64,000 nucleotides of DNA, taken from assembly GCF_947179015.1 (NCBI RefSeq), contig NZ_CAMXCM010000001.1:124001-188000 (forward strand). The letters are read 5' to 3'. Below the pieces are notes generated by a model. That model saw only the letters and a list, made by a program, of their open reading frames with translations. It did no database searches and was not told the origin of the DNA. Below are positions 37,720 through 47,449 of this stretch, one piece after another (position 1 is the first letter of the stretch; each line of letters begins with the position of its first letter). Source of the DNA: Commensalibacter communis (GTDB lineage Bacteria > Pseudomonadota > Alphaproteobacteria > Acetobacterales > Acetobacteraceae). The position numbers and the translations under genes are program-made.

Positions 37720-40700
37720 ATGCAATCGAATACAGACCAAGAACCACAGACGATAACGACACAAAAATATCTTATACGATGGTTAAAAAACTTTCTATTC
37801 CTTATTCTTGGAGTAGTAATTTTTTTAAGCGCTATTGTGGTGACTGGTGGTATTTATCTTACTTTAGAGCCGGTGAATATTACGCCTTTTGTAAAATCTT
37901 GGTTACCTATACCTATTATCAAAGGGACGAACAAACACCACCCAGCAGGAACGTTGAATTTTCAGAAGCTTGTTGTTGCGTGGCCTGTATGGAAACTAGG
38001 TTTCTCAGCGCCTTTGCAAATAGAAATTCAAAAAGCTGAGATTTTGGATTATCAAGAACATGTGCAGGGAAGTATCCAATATGCAAAGCTCGGCTTGGCA
38101 GTTGCCCCTTTATTTCATCGTGAGATACAGCCTTTGTCCTTGAATGTGGTTGGGGCAGAGTTACGGTTTAAAAGAACAACGGATCAAAGTATTCAACTAG
38201 ATCTAGTCGATCAAAAAAAGAGCTCTTCTAAGTCTAAGTTTCATTTTAATCTAAAATACCTGCATGACATTACTATTCGTAATAGCCATGTTAAATTAAT
38301 GGATGAAGTGAATAATAAAGTCATTCAATTAAAACAAATTGATATGAATATTTCACCATTTTATATTCAAAATACGTTGGGCGTTGTTGGGCATGTAATG
38401 GCGCAGCTTGATGTTGATGGTCATGTGATTAATCTGAGTGCACAAAGTGGTGCCGATGAGAATATCGAAATAGCACGTCAGATGCTTAATAACACAGGTT
38501 TACTAAAATGGCATGTGCAGATGGATGGGTTCAATCCTGCTGATTTTGCACAAATCAATCCAGCGTTAAAAGAATTAGCACAAGTTAATCTTCCCATTTC
38601 ACTTATGGCAGATATTGGCTTAAAATCAGAACAAAATCAATCTGTTATAGAACCTTATGAAATGTCTTTAACTATTAAAACCGGTAAAGGCAAAGTTGGG
38701 GTTAAGGGGCAAGATTTATATCCATCATCGCTTGATGCGCATATTCGTGCTAATTTTTCAACAGATTTGTATAAACCAGCTCATGTGACAATTGACAAGA
38801 TGGCTTTGCAATTACGCTCTCCCAAGGCATTGGATCAGGATCAAAGTGGGCCATTATTCCAATTTACTGGATCTTTGTTTTTATCAAGCTTAATTAAGAC
38901 TAAAGAAGTTAGAGTAAATTTCTCGGCGAATAGTTCAACGTTAGATTTTGCAACGATCAAAGATTACTGGCCTGCAATGGTTGCCAAAGGTGCACATGCG
39001 TGGGTAACAGAGAATATCACATCTGGGCAAGTGCACGGATTTAATATTGAAGCTGGATTATCCAGCCAAAAAGGCTGGGAACATTTGGATTTAGTGCATC
39101 TGGGCGGTGGTATTAAAGAAGCCGATCATGCGGAAATCCATTGGCTGCGTCCAGCCCCACCGTTAAAAGATATGAAAGCGAGCCTACGCTTTGTGGATCC
39201 TAGTCGTATCTATATCAAGCTTTGGGATGGGTATCAGGTTGTATATCCTAATAATACACCAACAGATCAATATCACAAATTATCAGTGCCCAAAGGAGAT
39301 ATGTGGATTACTGGGCTTGATAATCATCAAGAAACAGGGATAATTTCAACTGATATCCAAGGAAAATTACAAGATATTATTGCGCTTTTATACGAACCTA
39401 GATTACGCTTATTATCCCGACATCCTTTGCCTTTTAAGCATCCCAGTGGAGATGTCAAAACGACGTTAAAAGTCAAACTTCCTTTGAAAAAGAAAGTCAA
39501 AATAGAGCAAATTTCTATTCAAGGTCATAATGAAATTCGCAATGCGTATTTAGATAATGTCGCTTTGGACAGAGATTTTAAAAATGGGTCATTGACGATC
39601 AACGTAGATACCGACCATTTGGAGTTAACAGGCAAGGGGATATTCTCTGTTTTTCCTGTAACCTTAAACTATATGCAAAAATTCTCGCATAAGAGTGAGC
39701 AAAGTATTACAGAGATCGCTCAGGCAAAATTGGATATTACCCCTGATCGTTTTAAAAAAATGAAGGTCGATACATCGGGCGATTTTATAGGAGAGATCCC
39801 TTTATATGTTGGGTATCAGAAATTGCATAATGGTCAAGCAACTGTAAAATTACGATTTGATTTGCTTAATGCAGGTGTTCAATTGCCGATATGGACAAAA
39901 AATATTGGGCAACCAGCCATACTTGCTGGCGAAATAGCACTAGATCAAGGAAAATTAATTGGTATTAATAATTTATATGCGCAAGGAAAAGATCTTTCAT
40001 TAGATGCTAATATTGATGTTATTAATCATACCCCTCAACAGTTAAATATTACGTCTTTCCAAATTGGTCGTTCAATTGGCCAAGCCAGCTTAAATATTCC
40101 CATGACCAAAGAAGCGATGAACAATCCACAAAAGGGCGATATACGTCTTTCTGTAAAAGCGGATGCTTTGGATATCGCACCTTTTGTTCACAAATATGTG
40201 GGGCAAGATAAGAAAAAAAGTAAAACCACGAAAGCGAAAGATCAATATCAACTTCCGATTGCTGCAACAGGTCGATACTCAGGGCCAAGAGGACGCAAGT
40301 GGGTTGTGAATATACAAGCGCAAAAGATTTTTTATCGCAAAGATCAATTCCTAAGCAACGTGACAACGTATATGGAGTATAATGGGGTGCGCTTGATGCG
40401 TTTATCTTATGGGATGCGCAAACCTTTTGTATTGACAGCCTCATTATTCCCCAAAGATCAATATCGATATTTTCATTTAGAGGCTCAAGATTTTGGTCAG
40501 ATTTTAGAAACGGTGGGCGTTTCAACACAATTAAAAGGAGGAACGGTTGTTTTTAAAGGGCAATTTGATGATGCTAAACCTTCTGCACCTTTTACTGGTC
40601 GGGTTAAGATCAAAAATGTGACGTTAGAAAATGCCCCGCTTGCTATGCGCCGATTAAGCGATGCGTCAATTTACGGTTTGTTTAAGAAACGAAAAAACAA

Positions 40701-41043
40701 GGAAATTATTTTGGATACTATTCAAACTAATTTATCATTAGGTGATGGAATTTTAAATGTTACCGATGGGTTAGTGCATAACGCAGAGCTAGGGGCCACG
40801 TTGCAAGGTGATATCGATCTTAATCAAGCCAATTTAAATTTAAGAGGGACGATCGTGCCTGTATACGCAATTAATAAACTATTTGGTTTTTTACCTGGCG
40901 TTGGTAAATTGTTTAGTCCAGAAAAAGGGGGCGGGTTTGTTGCCGTTCCTTTTGATATCGAGGGTGGCTTTAAAAAACCAATTTTTGATTTATATCCTGC
41001 TCGAATTTTAACCCCAGGGGTTTTAAGAGAGCTGTTTTATTAG
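37720..41043 (+). CDS. Large AsmA/YhdP-like envelope protein (DUF3971-type)
   Basis: A 1107-residue protein with one N-terminal membrane anchor (LFLILGVVIFLSAIVVTGGIYL, ~26-47) and a long periplasmic beta-rich body. It carries repeated blocks of the AsmA-like superfamily: the DUF3971 part with WPAMVAKGAHAWVTENITSG (~419-438), and the C-terminal LRGTIVPVYAINKLFGFLPGVG with FDIEGGFKKPIFDL. YhdP/TamB/AsmA proteins form bridges that carry phospholipids between the membranes. Alphaproteobacterial homologues have this size and start. It is divergent from glnE. Confidence 0.88.
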   Translation: MQSNTDQEPQTITTQKYLIRWLKNFLFLILGVVIFLSAIVVTGGIYLTLEPVNITPFVKSWLPIPIIKGTNKHHPAGTLNFQKLVVAWPVWKLGFSAPLQIEIQKAEILDYQEHVQGSIQYAKLGLAVAPLFHREIQPLSLNVVGAELRFKRTTDQSIQLDLVDQKKSSSKSKFHFNLKYLHDITIRNSHVKLMDEVNNKVIQLKQIDMNISPFYIQNTLGVVGHVMAQLDVDGHVINLSAQSGADENIEIARQMLNNTGLLKWHVQMDGFNPADFAQINPALKELAQVNLPISLMADIGLKSEQNQSVIEPYEMSLTIKTGKGKVGVKGQDLYPSSLDAHIRANFSTDLYKPAHVTIDKMALQLRSPKALDQDQSGPLFQFTGSLFLSSLIKTKEVRVNFSANSSTLDFATIKDYWPAMVAKGAHAWVTENITSGQVHGFNIEAGLSSQKGWEHLDLVHLGGGIKEADHAEIHWLRPAPPLKDMKASLRFVDPSRIYIKLWDGYQVVYPNNTPTDQYHKLSVPKGDMWITGLDNHQETGIISTDIQGKLQDIIALLYEPRLRLLSRHPLPFKHPSGDVKTTLKVKLPLKKKVKIEQISIQGHNEIRNAYLDNVALDRDFKNGSLTINVDTDHLELTGKGIFSVFPVTLNYMQKFSHKSEQSITEIAQAKLDITPDRFKKMKVDTSGDFIGEIPLYVGYQKLHNGQATVKLRFDLLNAGVQLPIWTKNIGQPAILAGEIALDQGKLIGINNLYAQGKDLSLDANIDVINHTPQQLNITSFQIGRSIGQASLNIPMTKEAMNNPQKGDIRLSVKADALDIAPFVHKYVGQDKKKSKTTKAKDQYQLPIAATGRYSGPRGRKWVVNIQAQKIFYRKDQFLSNVTTYMEYNGVRLMRLSYGMRKPFVLTASLFPKDQYRYFHLEAQDFGQILETVGVSTQLKGGTVVFKGQFDDAKPSAPFTGRVKIKNVTLENAPLAMRRLSDASIYGLFKKRKNKEIILDTIQTNLSLGDGILNVTDGLVHNAELGATLQGDIDLNQANLNLRGTIVPVYAINKLFGFLPGVGKLFSPEKGGGFVAVPFDIEGGFKKPIFDLYPARILTPGVLRELFY

Positions 41044-41535
41044 TTAAATTTTATTAACGAAACCGTAGCATTTTATTTATAGATAAGTGTTTAATAAAAT
41101 ACGACCTGGGAATAACGATTGTATTTCAGTTGCAAAAGTGAAGGAAATAATAATACAAAAGTTGAATGAAGAGCTTTCACGTTTTATACAGTTATATCGA
41201 GTTTTAGAGTGAATCTAATTGCCTTAATACTGCCTTAATCTCGACTTATTGACCTTAATTATGATTTTTTGATTTAAAAGAAATTTGTAATATTATGGGT
41301 TATTTCTTTTGTGTAACAAGAATTCATTTAATCTAGTATCATATTTAAATGGTTTATAATCATTCTTATTATGGCATGATTATTCATTTATATAAAATCA
41401 TACTGATTATATAAATTAAGCGTTATATGAGAGCTTTATAATTTGTAGTCATGTTAAATGATTAAGCACATCGTTATTTAAGCTGCTGTGAAAATTATTT
41501 ATTATTAAAACTAAAGAAATGGAGCATTTAGTTAC
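41044..41535 (+). promoter_or_regulatory. Long leader and control region of the RND efflux operon, with CTTAAT direct repeats
   Basis: 492 bases with no gene. At 41223-41259 there are half-sites CTTAAT (41223-41228), CTTAAT (41234-41239), CTTATT (41245-41250) and CTTAAT (41254-41259). The first three are exactly 11 bases apart on one strand. CTTAAT-N5-CTTAAT is the layout of direct repeats bound by OmpR/PhoB-type response regulators; PmrA boxes have this very sequence. Which regulator binds here is unknown. The rest is very AT-rich, with no clear terminator after the AsmA-like gene. Confidence 0.55.
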
Positions 41536-44500
41536 GTGAATGCGATAGTTATTACGGCGTTAAAACGCCCGTATACCTTTGTTGTCTTAGCAATTTTAAT
41601 CGTTGTATTTGGGGTTTTATCAATTTTTAAAACACCAACAGATATTTTTCCTGATATTAAAATACCTGTTGTCGCTGTGGTTTGGAATTATAATGGATTA
41701 ATGCCCGAGGATATGTCAGGGCGAGTGGCTTACTATTACGAAAGAGCCCTCACGTCAACCGTCGATAATATTGAGCATATTGAAAGCAATTCTTTTTATG
41801 GTCGTGGGATTGTAAAAATATTTTTCCAGCCGGGAACAAATATTGCCGAGGCACAAACTCAGATCACATCTGTTTCTCAAACTGTTTTAAAACAAATGCC
41901 AAAGGGGATTACGCCTCCTTTGATTTTAAAATATAATGCGTCTTCTGTCCCTGTATTGATGTTAAAAATCTCTTCCAGCACCATAACAGGATCTCAGCTT
42001 TATGATATGGCCTCTAACCTTATCCGCCCATCATTGGTTTCAGTAGCAGGGGCAGCATTGCCTTCACCCTATGGGGGAACGGCTAATAATGTGCAAGTTT
42101 CTTTAAATCAAAAACGCTTACTAGCTTATGGATTGACGGCTACGGACATTGGAAACGCGCTCAATCAGCAAAATATTGTTTTACCTGCTGGGGATCAAAA
42201 GATTGGTGCTGTTGACTTTATGGTACAAACAAATGCAACACCACGGGCGATAGAAGAATTTAACAATATTCCTATTAAGCAAGTTGGAAATGCGACTGTT
42301 TATTTAAAAGACGTTGCTTGGGTGCATAGAGGCGGTTCACCACAAACAAATTTAGTGCTGGTAAAAGGGCACAAAGCCATTTTGATGGTGGTAATGAAAT
42401 CAGGTGATGTATCAACATTGAATGTTGTATCTGGGATAAAAAAATTATTACCTCAAGTGCAAAAAACACTGCCACCAGGGGTTAATATTGACATTATCTC
42501 AGACGCTTCGACTTTTGTAAAAGAGTCCGTGGAAGACGTTGTCCATGAAATGGTTATTGCTGCTTTATTGACCAGCATAGTGGTCATTTTATTTCTGGGT
42601 TCATGGCGATCCACGTTAATTATTGCCACGTCAATTCCTTTGGCTATTTTAACGGCGTTGATTGGATTGGATTTAGCAGGGCAAACCATTAATGTTATGA
42701 CCCTTGGGGGGCTGGCGTTAGCAGTGGGTATCTTGGTTGATGATGCTACGGTGATGATTGAAAATATTGATACGCATTTAGAGATGGGAAAAAATCTCTA
42801 TGACGCAATTGTGGATGCGGCCAATCAAATTGTTATTCCAACCTTTGTCTCTACACTTTGCATTTGTATTGTGTGGTTTCCGTTATTTGAGTTGACTGGC
42901 GTAGGTGGATGGTTATTTATGCCAATGGCAGAAGCTATTATTTTTGCGATGATCGCTTCTTTTATTTTATCCAGAACCTTGGTTCCCACGATGGCTTATT
43001 ATCTTTTGCCAGGTCAGATCAGAGAGCATGAAAATCCTAATCGAAAGATTTCAAAACTTCAAAAGTTTTTAAATCGTTTTGACGCAGGTTTTGAGCGTTT
43101 TAGAACAAATTATAAGGCATTATTAGAGCATTTATTATCTATCCGAAAAAGATTCATCGCTGGTTTTATGGTTTTTTCAGTTGCTTCGATGGGATTATTA
43201 TATTTTTGTGGGCAGGATTTTTTCCCTGAAATTAAATCAGGGGAACTGGATTTGCATATGCGCGCGCCTTTAGGGACGCGGATTGAAGAAACAGGTAAAA
43301 TCTCGTATTTAGTTAATGAAGAAATAGAGAAATTGTTACCTGGCCAGGTCAAAGGCATTGTCAATAATTGTGGACTACCATTCAGTAGTCTTAATCAGGC
43401 TTTTATTCCCACGCCTACTATTGGGTCGCAAGATTGTGATTTAACAATTTCTTTGAATAACTCTGAATCTCCGATTACAGAATATCGTAAAATATTACGT
43501 CAAGGATTAAGGGATAAATTTCCTGGGACGGATTTTGCATTTATGCCAGGGGATATGACGGCCAAGATTCTGAATTTTGGCTTGCCCGCACCAATTAATG
43601 TTCAAATTGTCGGACGTAATCTATCTGCAAATTATGAATATGCTAAATTTGTGGCTTCTAAATTAAAAAATATTCCTGGGATTGCTGATGTTCGGGTGCA
43701 ACAAACAGTGACTACTCCAACGTTAATGATAAATACACGCAGAACATTTGCCCTCAGCACAGGATTAACAGAGGCTGATATTGCTAATAATGCGTTGGCA
43801 ACATTGTCAGGCAGTGGTCAGACGGCTCCGACTTATTGGCTTGATCCTAAAACTGGTGTTTCCCATTTGGTCAATATCCAAACACCGCAAGCAGAACTAC
43901 AAACGATGAATGATTTGGAAACCATTCCTGTCAATGGGCCAGAGGGCGCCAGTGGGAAAACCAAAACACAAATGTTGGGGTCTTTAAGTCACATTTCACA
44001 AACTGGAACGGGTGGAGAGGTTTCTCATTATAATATTATGCCTGTTTTCGAGATTTATGCCAGCAATGATGGTCGAGATTTGGGTGCCGTATCAGCGGAT
44101 GTAAATAAAGTTGTTCACGATCTTAATTCTCAATTGCCCAGAGGATCCACGATTGCGATCCGAGGGCAATCAACAACCATGTACAATGCATATTCTCAAT
44201 TGATCGGTGGCTTAGCCATGTCAATTTTATTGGTTTATCTGATTATTGTTGTTAATTTCCAGTCTTGGTTGGATCCATTTGTGATTATCACGGCATTGCC
44301 TGGTGCATTAGCTGGAATTGCTTGGAGTTTATTTATAACCCATAGTTCTATATCTGTACCTGCATTAACGGGGGCGATTATGTGTATGGGTACAGCTACG
44401 GCAAATTCTATTTTAGTCGTTTCATTTGCAAGGGAACGTTTAGCTGTGCATGGAAATGCTGTTTTAGCAGCAGTGGAAGCAGGGTATGGACGTATTCGAC

Positions 44501-44685
44501 CTGTTTTAATGACGGCTTCGGCAATGATTATTGGGATGTTACCAATGTCACTCAGCAATACTCAAAACGCCCCTCTGGGTAGAGCAGTGATGGGTGGATT
44601 AAGCGTTGCAACCTCAGCAACTTTACTCTTTGTTCCTTGTGTTTTTGCACTTGTTTATTATCGCCAGAAAAAGGAAGCTGTTTAA
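41536..44685 (+). CDS. RND efflux transporter permease (AcrB/MexB-like)
   Basis: A 1049-residue proton-driven inner-membrane pump. It has TM1 (residues ~13-33), two large periplasmic loops and 12 membrane helices in all. TM4 contains GGLALAVGILVDDATVMIEN, whose paired Asp (~402-403) relay protons. PTDIFPDIKIPVVAVVW and the C-terminal GLPMS-like block MIIGMLPMSLS are family signatures. The start is GTG at 41536, with GGAG 11 bases upstream; the nearby ATG is out of frame. The permease comes first in the operon, before adaptor and channel, an order unlike acrAB. The substrate is unknown; the PDI-P-V pattern belongs to the multidrug (HAE) class. Confidence 0.94.
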   Translation: MNAIVITALKRPYTFVVLAILIVVFGVLSIFKTPTDIFPDIKIPVVAVVWNYNGLMPEDMSGRVAYYYERALTSTVDNIEHIESNSFYGRGIVKIFFQPGTNIAEAQTQITSVSQTVLKQMPKGITPPLILKYNASSVPVLMLKISSSTITGSQLYDMASNLIRPSLVSVAGAALPSPYGGTANNVQVSLNQKRLLAYGLTATDIGNALNQQNIVLPAGDQKIGAVDFMVQTNATPRAIEEFNNIPIKQVGNATVYLKDVAWVHRGGSPQTNLVLVKGHKAILMVVMKSGDVSTLNVVSGIKKLLPQVQKTLPPGVNIDIISDASTFVKESVEDVVHEMVIAALLTSIVVILFLGSWRSTLIIATSIPLAILTALIGLDLAGQTINVMTLGGLALAVGILVDDATVMIENIDTHLEMGKNLYDAIVDAANQIVIPTFVSTLCICIVWFPLFELTGVGGWLFMPMAEAIIFAMIASFILSRTLVPTMAYYLLPGQIREHENPNRKISKLQKFLNRFDAGFERFRTNYKALLEHLLSIRKRFIAGFMVFSVASMGLLYFCGQDFFPEIKSGELDLHMRAPLGTRIEETGKISYLVNEEIEKLLPGQVKGIVNNCGLPFSSLNQAFIPTPTIGSQDCDLTISLNNSESPITEYRKILRQGLRDKFPGTDFAFMPGDMTAKILNFGLPAPINVQIVGRNLSANYEYAKFVASKLKNIPGIADVRVQQTVTTPTLMINTRRTFALSTGLTEADIANNALATLSGSGQTAPTYWLDPKTGVSHLVNIQTPQAELQTMNDLETIPVNGPEGASGKTKTQMLGSLSHISQTGTGGEVSHYNIMPVFEIYASNDGRDLGAVSADVNKVVHDLNSQLPRGSTIAIRGQSTTMYNAYSQLIGGLAMSILLVYLIIVVNFQSWLDPFVIITALPGALAGIAWSLFITHSSISVPALTGAIMCMGTATANSILVVSFARERLAVHGNAVLAAVEAGYGRIRPVLMTASAMIIGMLPMSLSNTQNAPLGRAVMGGLSVATSATLLFVPCVFALVYYRQKKEAV

Positions 44686-45935
44686 TGTCTGGATTTTCAA
44701 AAAAAACAAAAGCAGTTTTTGCATTTATTGCGGTCGGTGCAGTCATTTACACTGGAATAGAAATAGTTCAACGCCAGCATCATGTTCACGTGTTGGTCAA
44801 GGAAGCTAAAGATTCATCTATACCAAGAGTGCAATATATTAATCCACAAACGGGTCCCACAGTCCGTAACCTGACCTTGCCAGGAAATGTAACGGCTTGG
44901 TATCAGGCTCCTATTTATGCTCAAGTCTCTGGCTATGTTAAGCAATGGTATAAAGATTTTGGTGCTGACGTTAAAGCTGGGGATATATTAGCAACCATTG
45001 ACACCCCAGGTTTAGATGCTGAGTATGAAGCAGCTAGAGCCAATTTAAAAGTGGCTCAAACAAAATATCAGCTAGCCAAAGTTACAGCACAACGATGGAA
45101 AGCACTTTCTGGAACAAAAGCTGTTTCACAACAAGAAGTAGACGTGCAGGCAGCAAATGCGAAAGTGCAAGATGCTTTGGTTGATGCTGCAAAACATGAT
45201 GTTGATCGTTATGCGGCTTTACAAGCGTTTAGAAGTATTCGTGCCCCTTTTGATGGTGTGGTAACCTCTCGTTTAACGGATGTTGGGGATTTTGTGAATG
45301 ATAATGGTGATCTGAGTCGTTCAGGAAAAGCTACGGAATTATTTACCGTGGCGGACATTCATCGATTACGTGTATTTGTCGATGTGCCACAAGATTATGC
45401 CTCTATTTTAAAGTCTGGTGTTAAAGCGGAATTGACAGCTATTCAATATCCTGGGAAAATTTTTAAAGCAGATTATTTAACGTCTGCGCGGGCATTTAAT
45501 ACAACGACCCGAACAGTGACAACCGAATTAACGGTTGATAATGCATCTCATTTATTGTGGCCGGGTACTTTTGTAAATGTTCATTTCATCGCCCCTGCAG
45601 ATCCTAATATATTAATCTTACCAGAACAAGCGCTGATTTTTAGAGCGCAAGGTATGCAAGTTGCTGTGATTGGAACGGATAATCGGGTTCGAATGCACAA
45701 TGTGACTTTGGGAAATAATTTGGGTAAATCTGTACAAATCTTATCAGGGGTTACTAAAACAGACCGTGTTGTGAATAATCCTTCGGCTGGATTGATGGAC
45801 GGGCAATTGGTGAAGTTAGTGGATAGCACCCCTGGGTATAATGATGATTTTCAAAATACAGAGCAAATAACTCCTAAACATGAAAATGAATCGCTCAAGA
45901 AAAATGCTGCACAACCTGTCGAGGTACAACAATAA
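44685..45935 (+). CDS. RND efflux periplasmic adaptor (membrane fusion protein)
   Basis: A 416-residue HlyD/AcrA-type adaptor bridging the permease and the outer-membrane channel. It has an N-terminal membrane anchor (AVFAFIAVGAVIYTGIEI, ~11-28), a biotinyl-lipoyl half with YAQVSGYVKQWYKDFGADVKAGDILATID, a helical hairpin (residues ~105-155), and the beta-barrel with IRAPFDGVVTSRLTDVGDFV. The ATG at 44685 shares its A with the permease stop (TAATG), so translation is coupled. The frame opens earlier at 44637, but that overlaps the permease and lacks the usual N-terminus. Confidence 0.94.
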   Translation: MSGFSKKTKAVFAFIAVGAVIYTGIEIVQRQHHVHVLVKEAKDSSIPRVQYINPQTGPTVRNLTLPGNVTAWYQAPIYAQVSGYVKQWYKDFGADVKAGDILATIDTPGLDAEYEAARANLKVAQTKYQLAKVTAQRWKALSGTKAVSQQEVDVQAANAKVQDALVDAAKHDVDRYAALQAFRSIRAPFDGVVTSRLTDVGDFVNDNGDLSRSGKATELFTVADIHRLRVFVDVPQDYASILKSGVKAELTAIQYPGKIFKADYLTSARAFNTTTRTVTTELTVDNASHLLWPGTFVNVHFIAPADPNILILPEQALIFRAQGMQVAVIGTDNRVRMHNVTLGNNLGKSVQILSGVTKTDRVVNNPSAGLMDGQLVKLVDSTPGYNDDFQNTEQITPKHENESLKKNAAQPVEVQQ

Positions 45936-47449
45936 TGTTGAATAACTTTAGATTACAGCACACTCGAATAGGGATATGTTTAGTTTCGGGTTTGTTGATG
46001 TTAAGCGCATGTGATTTAGCCCCTGAATATAAACGACCTCAATATGCTTTGCCTGATACATGGCAAGGGACGGCGCCGTTTCATGTTGCTCAACCCTTAG
46101 ATGAAATCCCAAAAGGGACATGGTGGACTGTATTTAATGATCCAACTTTAAATCAATTAGAAGACCAGCTGAATAAAAATAACCCTGATCTAAAGGCTGC
46201 CGCAGAGACTTTTATGCAAAGTCGTGCGTTGTTAAGCGAAGTCAAATCTCAGCTCTATCCCAATTTAACGCTCTCGGCTGGTGGAGGACGGTATAAACAG
46301 TCTCATAATCGTCTGTTTCGTAGCTCGACAAGCAATGGACCTATTACAGAGAATAATGCCCAATATCAAGCCTCTGCAATGTGGGAGGTTGATTTGTGGG
46401 GCAGGATTCGTAATCAGATTAAAATGCAGCGCAGTCTAGCACAAGTGAGTGCTGCTGACTATGAAGCGGCTAAGTTGAGTTTACAAGCCGAATTAGCCCG
46501 AAACTATATGATTTTACGTGGATATGATGCGCAAAATGAAGTGTTAAAAGAGTCAATTAAATATTTTGAAGCCGCTGTTGATGTGACACGTATGCGTCAA
46601 ATGGGGGCAATTGCTGCGGGCATTGACGTATCCAGAGCTGAAAATCAACTTGAAATGACCAAGGCACAACAGACAGAAATTCAGGCTCAACGTGATATTA
46701 CAGAACATGCAATTGCGGTATTGGTCAATCAAGTTCCCATGGGTTTTCATGTTGAACCTATAAAATCGAATGAGGCGATGAATATTCCCAATGTGCCTTT
46801 GGGGGTTCCTTCTGCCTTGTTACAACGTCGCCCTGATATTGCCAGCGCTGAACGTCAAATGGCAGCGGCTAATCGTGCTATTGGGGTATCAAAAGCAGCT
46901 TTTTACCCAGATATTACCATTAATGCTTTAAGTGGATTTGAAGATAGTGGTTTTGGTTTAGCCACATTGCCGAACAGTATGTGGTCAGCGGCAGTTAAGG
47001 CTGCCCTTCCTCTATTTCAAGGCGGGTTACGCAGAGCAACGTTACAAAGGAATTGGTCTCAATATCGACAAACCAGAGACAATTATCGTTCAGTTGTATT
47101 AAATGGCTTTAAAGAGGTTGCTGATAATTTGACGTTGACCCAAAAAATGTCAAAAAAATTTAGAGAGAATAAAGCAGCGTCAGAAGCAGCATTGCGAACA
47201 CAAGGGATGGCAATGTCTTTGTATACGGGTGGCTTAACAAATTATTTAGATGTTGTTACTGCACAAACAGCAGCCTTAACCGCCCAGATAGCAGAGGTGG
47301 AAAGTAAAACCAGGTTAATGCAAGCTTCTGTCAATCTGATCACCGCTTTAGGTGGGGGATGGGATGCAAACGAACTGCCACAGAAAAAGTTAGAATCAGT
47401 AGGTGTGTTTCAGTATAGTCATTTAGGGAATAGTGTGGGCAAAGAATAA
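45935..47449 (+). CDS. Outer-membrane efflux lipoprotein (NodT/OprM family)
   Basis: A 504-residue TolC-like channel. A signal sequence ends at the lipobox LMLSAC (Cys 26), followed by DLAPEYKRPQ, the typical start of NodT-type channels. The body has the two OEP repeats of long coiled helices: DPTLNQLEDQLNKNNPDLKAA begins the first, and PLGVPSALLQRRPDIASAERQM opens the second. It begins at a TAATG junction with the adaptor, so the three proteins should be made in fixed ratio and form one tripartite pump. Length is normal. Confidence 0.95.
   Translation: MLNNFRLQHTRIGICLVSGLLMLSACDLAPEYKRPQYALPDTWQGTAPFHVAQPLDEIPKGTWWTVFNDPTLNQLEDQLNKNNPDLKAAAETFMQSRALLSEVKSQLYPNLTLSAGGGRYKQSHNRLFRSSTSNGPITENNAQYQASAMWEVDLWGRIRNQIKMQRSLAQVSAADYEAAKLSLQAELARNYMILRGYDAQNEVLKESIKYFEAAVDVTRMRQMGAIAAGIDVSRAENQLEMTKAQQTEIQAQRDITEHAIAVLVNQVPMGFHVEPIKSNEAMNIPNVPLGVPSALLQRRPDIASAERQMAAANRAIGVSKAAFYPDITINALSGFEDSGFGLATLPNSMWSAAVKAALPLFQGGLRRATLQRNWSQYRQTRDNYRSVVLNGFKEVADNLTLTQKMSKKFRENKAASEAALRTQGMAMSLYTGGLTNYLDVVTAQTAALTAQIAEVESKTRLMQASVNLITALGGGWDANELPQKKLESVGVFQYSHLGNSVGKE

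Follow-up and report, generated by a model that had tools for sequence, protein, structure and literature searches.

The repeats in front of the RND efflux pump operon of Commensalibacter communis probably constitute an operator of the OmpR class, with ChvI as its most likely regulator, that was born within the gene rmuC and left in place after the loss of that gene. The features computed here were the conservation of the repeats, the periodicity of their half-sites, their position in rmuC, the absence of synonymous change in one genome pair and the recurrence of like sites at two other promoters.

The stretch of DNA analysed (64,000 nucleotides, hereafter the window) carried the operon in the order RND permease, adaptor, outer-membrane factor, preceded by a 492-nt intergenic region (Table 1). 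The closest relatives of the pump belonged to Commensalibacter, as did the host genome, and no plasmid record matched the region. Nine genomes of the genus were searchable (G000-G008, where G000 is the window's own genome and G002 and G003 are near copies), and all nine kept the pump (79-100% identical). In the four genomes G002, G003, G007 and G008, rmuC lay between the YhdP-like gene and the pump. A search for RmuC (Pfam PF02646) gave no match in any of the five genomes with the present intergenic region (G000, G001, G004, G005, G006); of 14 genomes used as controls, PF02646 matched in four, including E. coli and Caulobacter. A tiny frame (ATGGAGCATTTAGTTACGTGA, window 41519-41539) overlapped the GTG start of the pump gene and was kept in all five rmuC-less genomes, where only the third base of its Val codon varied; it is perhaps just the ribosome-binding region.

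Table 1. Pump operon, upstream gene and elements of the intergenic region, in window positions.
Feature	Position	Strand	Sequence	Remarks
YhdP-like gene	37720..41043	+		Upstream; Pfam YhdP
Conserved block (candidate operator)	41218..41262	+		45 nt; place of the rmuC codons (P)ALMPPLLRTIHLGY; basis: alignments and rmuC match
Half-site 1	41221..41228	+	GCCTTAAT	Invariant columns 7/8 in the five rmuC-less genomes
Half-site 2	41232..41239	+	GCCTTAAT	11 bp after half-site 1; invariant columns 6/8
Half-site 3	41243..41250	+	GACTTATT	Weaker; invariant columns 5/8
Possible -35 hexamer	41249..41254	+	TTGACC	Directly after half-site 3
Fourth CTTAAT	41254..41259	+	CTTAAT	9 bp further on; not conserved; probably no half-site
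Second candidate promoter	41269-41296		TTGATT-16-TATTAT	Listed by consensus scan
RND permease	41536..44685	+		Pump operon; Pfam ACR_tran, 656 bits
Periplasmic adaptor	44637..45935	+		ORF as listed; Pfam HlyD_D23; NCBIfam RND_mfp over cut-off
Outer-membrane efflux protein	45935..47449	+		Pfam OEP

Direct inspection of the window confirmed the repeats of the preliminary description, i.e. CTTAAT at 41223-41228 and 41234-41239 and CTTATT at 41245-41250, 11 bases apart; the further CTTAAT that it listed at 41254-41259 was also present but not conserved. Successive spacings were thus 11, 11 and 9. The exact pair CTTAAT-N5-CTTAAT was unique, both in the 64-kb window and in the 2.58-Mb genome as a whole. 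It arose in 7 of 20,000 dinucleotide shuffles of the intergenic region, and three CTTAWT in 11-bp register arose in none of 20,000. Allowing one mismatch, the whole genome held 31 matches against 32 for the reversed-pattern control, i.e. no enrichment, and allowing two mismatches, the window held 17 against 15.2 expected. Since shuffles rarely reach the cluster and the reversed control nearly equals the pattern count, the local repeat cluster is beyond chance, yet the genome is without a set of CTTAAT-N5-CTTAAT boxes. The preliminary description had named two outcomes as speaking against its proposal: a motif found equally often inside genes, which, taken as elsewhere in the genome, holds for the bare CTTAAT-N5-CTTAAT pattern, and a lack of conservation in relatives, which the comparison of the intergenic region contradicted.

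The block was present in all four relatives with the window's gene order (G004, G006, G005 and G001). The conserved unit was GCCTTAAT-N3-GCCTTAAT followed by a weaker third copy, at an 11-bp period, and the consensus common to G000, G004, G006, G001 and G005 was GCCTTAWTnCYGCCTYRATYnnnAHTTAWT, 265-328 nt upstream of the pump start. Over the 45 nt, identity to G000 was 44/45 in G004, 32/45 in G006, 35/45 in G001 and 29/45 in G005. Identities of the pump gene to G000 in the same four genomes were 0.55, 0.39, 0.37 and 0.32 at four-fold sites, and 0.67, 0.54, 0.53 and 0.50 at third positions of identical residues. Four-fold identity was 0.32-0.41 for every pair of the five except G000-G004, i.e. 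near saturation, and binomial tails for block versus four-fold identity ranged from 3e-8 to 1e-5 (G001, G006, G005), uncorrected for the choice of the block.

A BLAST search with the region returned the block in G001 as a match of its own (E 8.5e-9). The blind best ungapped 30-mer between intergenic regions fell on the block in five of six pairs and scored above shuffles in four (0, 2, 0 and 0 of 200 shuffles as high). For G000-G005 it fell on the block yet was no better than shuffles (33/200 as high), and for G006-G005 the best match was off the block (106/200). Gapped identities of the flanks were 0.60-0.88, and shuffled flanks gave about equal values in the six pairs checked, with the exception of the downstream flank of G000-G004 (0.83 vs 0.69 shuffled). 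The last 60 nt upstream of the pump start codon were also conserved (0.75-0.97). Invariant columns numbered 18/24 within the three half-sites versus 3/21 outside (Fisher p 7e-5, five rmuC-less genomes), a count that is not a blind test because the half-site borders were our own choice, taken from the repeats first described and extended by two bases.

Half-sites 1 and 2 together read GCC-N8-GCC. The conserved core was this sequence with TTAWT-like spacers and not CTTAAT alone, the GCC being as conserved as the CTTAAT part. Two marks of an OmpR/PhoB-class site were found, namely head-to-tail half-sites at a 10-11-bp period and conservation upstream of the same operon in relatives, GCC-N8-GCC standing at the pump in eight of the nine genus genomes (G007 was the exception). 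Over the genus genomes, the site lay 265-370 nt before the start codon, with a long leader in between that holds no conserved promoter.

Allowing two mismatches, the pump-site pattern had 29 matches in the nine genomes, 10 at the pump and 19 elsewhere. The latter equalled the reversed-pattern control (19, summed over genomes), so that only recurrence at orthologous promoters supports them. Eleven were inside long frames on either strand, and all eight intergenic matches lay upstream of two gene families (five and three matches, near copies G002/G003 included). The first family encodes a secreted coiled-coil protein and possessed TTGTTACA-N5-GCC-N8-GCC in 8/9 genomes, 64-72 nt before the start; in G007 the site read GCC-N8-GTC, with TTGTTACA absent in register. 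The second encodes a Lys/His/Ala-rich secreted protein, which is called Asr-like here by composition only and which, in its C. melissae form, had no Pfam match. Related repeats were found there on the other strand in 9/9 genomes, 127-136 nt before the start. Strict GCC-N8-GCC occurred in 0/9 genomes and GCC-N8-GTC in 5/9; the second triplet was GTC or ATC, and G000 and G004 had ACC as their first. Both distances are shorter than the 265-370 nt at the pump. Another secreted protein, in which LTPEQK/MTPEQ motifs recur and which is perhaps a periplasmic stress protein, was encoded downstream of the coiled-coil gene (L161; L143, second gene).

A model of all 21 sites (R3) returned its own training sites by construction and no further convincing target. 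Its E-values near 2e-4 are untrustworthy because a position within a coding frame scored E 2e-4 and so outranked several of the training sites. Among the eight new R3 matches inspected, L234 (E 2e-4) was antisense within another frame, and L233 (G007, E 0.04) and L239 (G006, E 0.05) were intergenic. The other five (L232, L236, L237, L238, L240) were GCC-N8-GCC with like spacers in one orthologous desaturase-like frame of G000, G006, G004, G005 and G001, at codons for GLILA or similar, which may reflect constraint on the protein or another intragenic operator. Among the lower matches of a model trained with the rmuC sites (R1), inspected in six loci (L175-L180), four were in long frames and two intergenic (L176, L180); L180 (1507-1520, G007) is a GCC-N8-GCC about 130 nt before the gene of a DsbA-like periplasmic protein. 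Within 700 nt upstream of the pump in 80 loci, as far as sequence reached, CTTA[ATG]T-N5-CTTA[AT]T or TTAA-N7-TTAA was found only in L009.

A two-component response regulator is likely to control the pump, as an 11-bp repeat of the OmpR/PhoB type is conserved in relatives and recurs at two promoters; to this extent the two-component control proposed in the preliminary description is borne out, apart from its attribution to PmrA (see below). It is quite probable that the regulator, whichever it is, belongs to the OmpR class. Six OmpR-type regulators (PF00486; L127-L132) were encoded in the genome, all outside the window, in agreement with the earlier remark that the window holds no such regulator with an output domain. 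None of the six reached the cut-off of its best-matching NCBIfam family; these families were PhoB (L127), OmpR (L128 and L130), the regulator of a dedicated sortase system (L129), MtrA (L131) and CtrA (L132). L131 is labelled here as a putative CenR.

The kinase encoded directly after L129 had ChvG as its best match (376 bits versus 178 for the next family; cut-off 740) and carried Sensor_TM1 and Stimulus_sens_1 domains. No ChvI model matched L129, which is presumably ChvI, a name given because this ChvG-like kinase directly follows it. A ChvG-ChvI pair was therefore considered to be encoded, with the kinase below the equivalog cut-off. A porin gene of the OmpW family lies downstream of chvG in the same orientation (L242, 809-1675). 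For ChvI of S. meliloti, PMC9731502 cites a consensus of 15 bp, N-GCC-N8-GCC, whose GCC-N8-GCC was found at the pump and at the coiled-coil gene in 8/9 genomes each and, in strict form, at the Lys/His-rich gene in 0/9. Since its eight occurrences on the two strands of the window are no more than those of other spacings, the GCC-N8-GCC match is low in information. The Caulobacter ChvI motif given in the same paper (TTGC-N3-GCAA, PMC9731502) occurred in 0/26 sites. ChvG-ChvI responds to acid and envelope stress in Agrobacterium (PMC9731437) and is described as widespread in acetic acid bacteria (PMC5017713). ChvI is the best candidate for the regulator of the predicted operator, with a probability that falls slightly short of one half.

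The operator could also belong to another of the OmpR-type regulators (PhoB-, OmpR-, PetR-, CenR- or CtrA-like; L127, L128, L130, L131, L132), which is unlikely, if still worth weighing with six such regulators in the genome. The motif was absent upstream of chvI and of the ompW gene beside chvG (G000), which speaks against ChvI although such a site would be a lead and no strict requirement. A CtrA-like protein is encoded, and the full CtrA box TTAA-N7-TTAA (PMC4287350) was found at the pump in G000 and G006. That box was nevertheless confined to 2/9 pump sites and 0/17 other sites, and neither the CenR site TGA-N8-TGA (PMC9275681) nor the RstA box (PMC4117788) occurred in any of the 26 sites. 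As motifs for the whole site set, all three were rejected (2/26, 0/26 and 0/26 sites, respectively). The CtrA-like regulator (L132, 1066-1773; contig C2 of G000, around 335000) had a degenerate receiver: compared by eye with alignments, its phospho-acceptor Asp was Glu, the conserved Lys was Ile and the acidic pair was altered, and it may act without phosphorylation.

The origin of the preferred operator was addressed through rmuC. In three of the four rmuC-bearing genomes (G002, G003, G008), the block lay inside rmuC at the codons for ALMPPLL, about 370 nt before the pump. Allowing one mismatch, GCCTTAAT-N3-GCCTTAAT had eight matches in the nine genomes, all at the pump and one in each genome except G007. 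A model built from the five intergenic blocks alone had its best genome-wide match inside rmuC in G002, G003 and G008 (E 0.008). In G007, rmuC encoded the same residues by other codons (GCT TTG ATG CCA CCT TTG versus GCC TTA ATG CCG CCT TTA in G003/G008) and was unmatched by that model; the place was the best match of the 6-kb locus by a simple profile (5.3 bits) and a weak match (E 0.44) of the model trained with rmuC sites. MAFFT also aligned the block to these rmuC codons, on input stretches pre-cut to start shortly before the block. Searching the intergenic regions with RmuC by tblastn gave no convincing protein-level match among the matches listed, and the putative homology of block and rmuC codons is argued from DNA, place and rank.

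The rmuC genes of G003 and G008 were 81.6% identical in nucleotides, and their longest identical run (51 nt, the next being 20) covered the block. The same codon was used in 193 of 338 same-residue codons (rate 0.57; Met and Trp excluded), with 16 identical codons in a row on the block (shuffles: p = 0.014 for such a run anywhere). This codon constraint comes from one independent genome pair, and comparison with G007 showed none (4/14 codons the same). In the pump tree with outgroups, G007 branched first (98/97) and the five-genome clade was weak (76/74); the joined tree of three genes, one of them partial, grouped the five rmuC-less genomes at 99.4/99. One loss of rmuC is the simplest history. 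As the rmuC-less genomes keep a block that lies inside rmuC in 3/4 of the rmuC-bearing ones, the block appears to have arisen in coding DNA and to have outlived the gene.

The same position would also suit a functionless, decaying relic of rmuC, whose repeats stem from Ala-Leu-Met-Pro-Pro-Leu codons in an AT-rich genome. In favour of a relic, the block agrees with rmuC codons at the orthologous position, a stop in the rmuC frame fell within the repeats in G000, G001 and G006 (TAA) and in G005 (TGA), and the block was no more alike than shuffles in 2/6 pairs. At this distance, neutral sites are close to saturation in every pair but G000-G004, yet the half-sites were kept at their 11-bp period, between flanks that, apart from the one exception downstream, aligned about like shuffled ones. 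Together with the like sites at two unrelated promoters and the lack of synonymous change at the block between G003 and G008, this makes a relic improbable.

That the repeats serve a non-OmpR regulator, or act not as an operator but as an RNA or a promoter element, is given a similarly small chance. In favour of this, TTGAC follows half-site 3, being retained in G000, G004 and G001 only; against it, the repeats are better conserved than this promoter-like hexamer, and a head-to-tail arrangement with 11-bp period is characteristic of OmpR-class sites. TTGACC was not listed by the promoter consensus scan, whose six promoter-like sites were no excess over shuffles (4.2, sd 1.9), and no Rfam family exceeded its cut-off in 40900-41700. 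The preliminary description's own reading, a PmrA box CTTAAT-N5-CTTAAT through which PmrAB controls the pump, is hardly credible: the box was exact at 2/9 pump sites (G000 and G006) and inexact in the other seven genomes, GCC was conserved as well as the CTTAAT part, the pattern was not enriched in the genome, and PmrA was the best NCBIfam match of 0/6 OmpR-type regulators.

Among the 80 pump loci examined, 41 had an OmpR-type regulator and kinase directly before the pump (e.g. L013, 3714-5835; same place in L014-L021, L023-L027, L029-L051, L055, L057, L059, L083), and RmuC stood before them in 32 of the 41. The four Commensalibacter among the 80 had neither regulator nor kinase, and most other remaining loci were more distant pumps. 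No close relative of the pump-adjacent regulator was found in the nine Commensalibacter genomes (best 38% identical, versus 65-88% in the 40 other loci).

Under the favoured ChvI-type operator, an OmpR/PhoB-family regulator would bind the two strong and one weaker head-to-tail GCCTTAAT half-sites as a tandem dimer or oligomer, the phosphorylated form most likely occupying half-sites 1 and 2 and then 3. Bound regulator would recruit RNA polymerase to a promoter just downstream, either TTGACC at 41249 or TTGATT-16-TATTAT at 41269, giving a leader of more than 200 nt to the pump start. From the computed features we infer binding, the identity of the regulator, one regulator for all three sites, activation and not repression, and a stress signal. 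As like operators precede the secreted coiled-coil and Lys/His-rich genes, these two and the pump may form a small envelope- or acid-stress regulon. The operator would have arisen in the 3' part of rmuC, and when one Commensalibacter clade lost that gene, the repeats would have stayed behind as intergenic sequence; the operator may replace the lost pump-adjacent two-component system. The complete sequence of events, in which synonymous changes in rmuC built a ChvI operator after the loss of the adjacent two-component system, the codons served doubly and the operator outlived rmuC, is proposed tentatively, at a little under even chances.

If true, this would be a traceable case of a pump changing its master, from a dedicated local two-component system to a general envelope-stress system, and of a site that evolves within the codons of the adjoining gene and survives that gene's death. 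Operator birth in coding DNA is thereby made testable in nine related insect-symbiont genomes, and the case suggests that regulation of a downstream gene can constrain synonymous positions towards the 3' end of the gene before it. In Commensalibacter, an efflux pump would thereby be connected with secreted proteins that are perhaps related to stress. Literature searches, not aimed at operators within rmuC, found no report of this operator among the papers listed.

An 11-bp repeat operator is of a known kind (OmpR-class), of which the pump site appears to be a variant born in rmuC codons. The arrangement of response regulator, histidine kinase and RND pump occurs in other Acetobacteraceae, including Komagataeibacter, Gluconacetobacter, Acetobacter, Gluconobacter and Bombella. 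With the PmrA/BasR box the pump site shares the 11-bp direct repeat, and in G000 and G006 two of its half-sites contain CTTAAT; unlike that box, it is neither conserved as CTTAAT nor enriched, and PmrA was not found. The CtrA box likewise shares the 11-bp period and fits the pump sites of G000 and G006, but is missing from the remaining pump sites and from both of the other target genes. The S. meliloti ChvI site, whose consensus presumably goes back to Ratib et al. 2018, is similar in its direct GCC trinucleotide repeat with 8 bases between and an 11-bp period, and a regulator-kinase pair of this kind is also encoded in the Commensalibacter genome. In contrast to it, the Commensalibacter half-sites, as predicted from sequence, are longer (GCCTTAAT) and up to three in number, the Lys/His-rich gene has GTC or ATC in place of the second GCC, and the pump site appears to have arisen in coding DNA.
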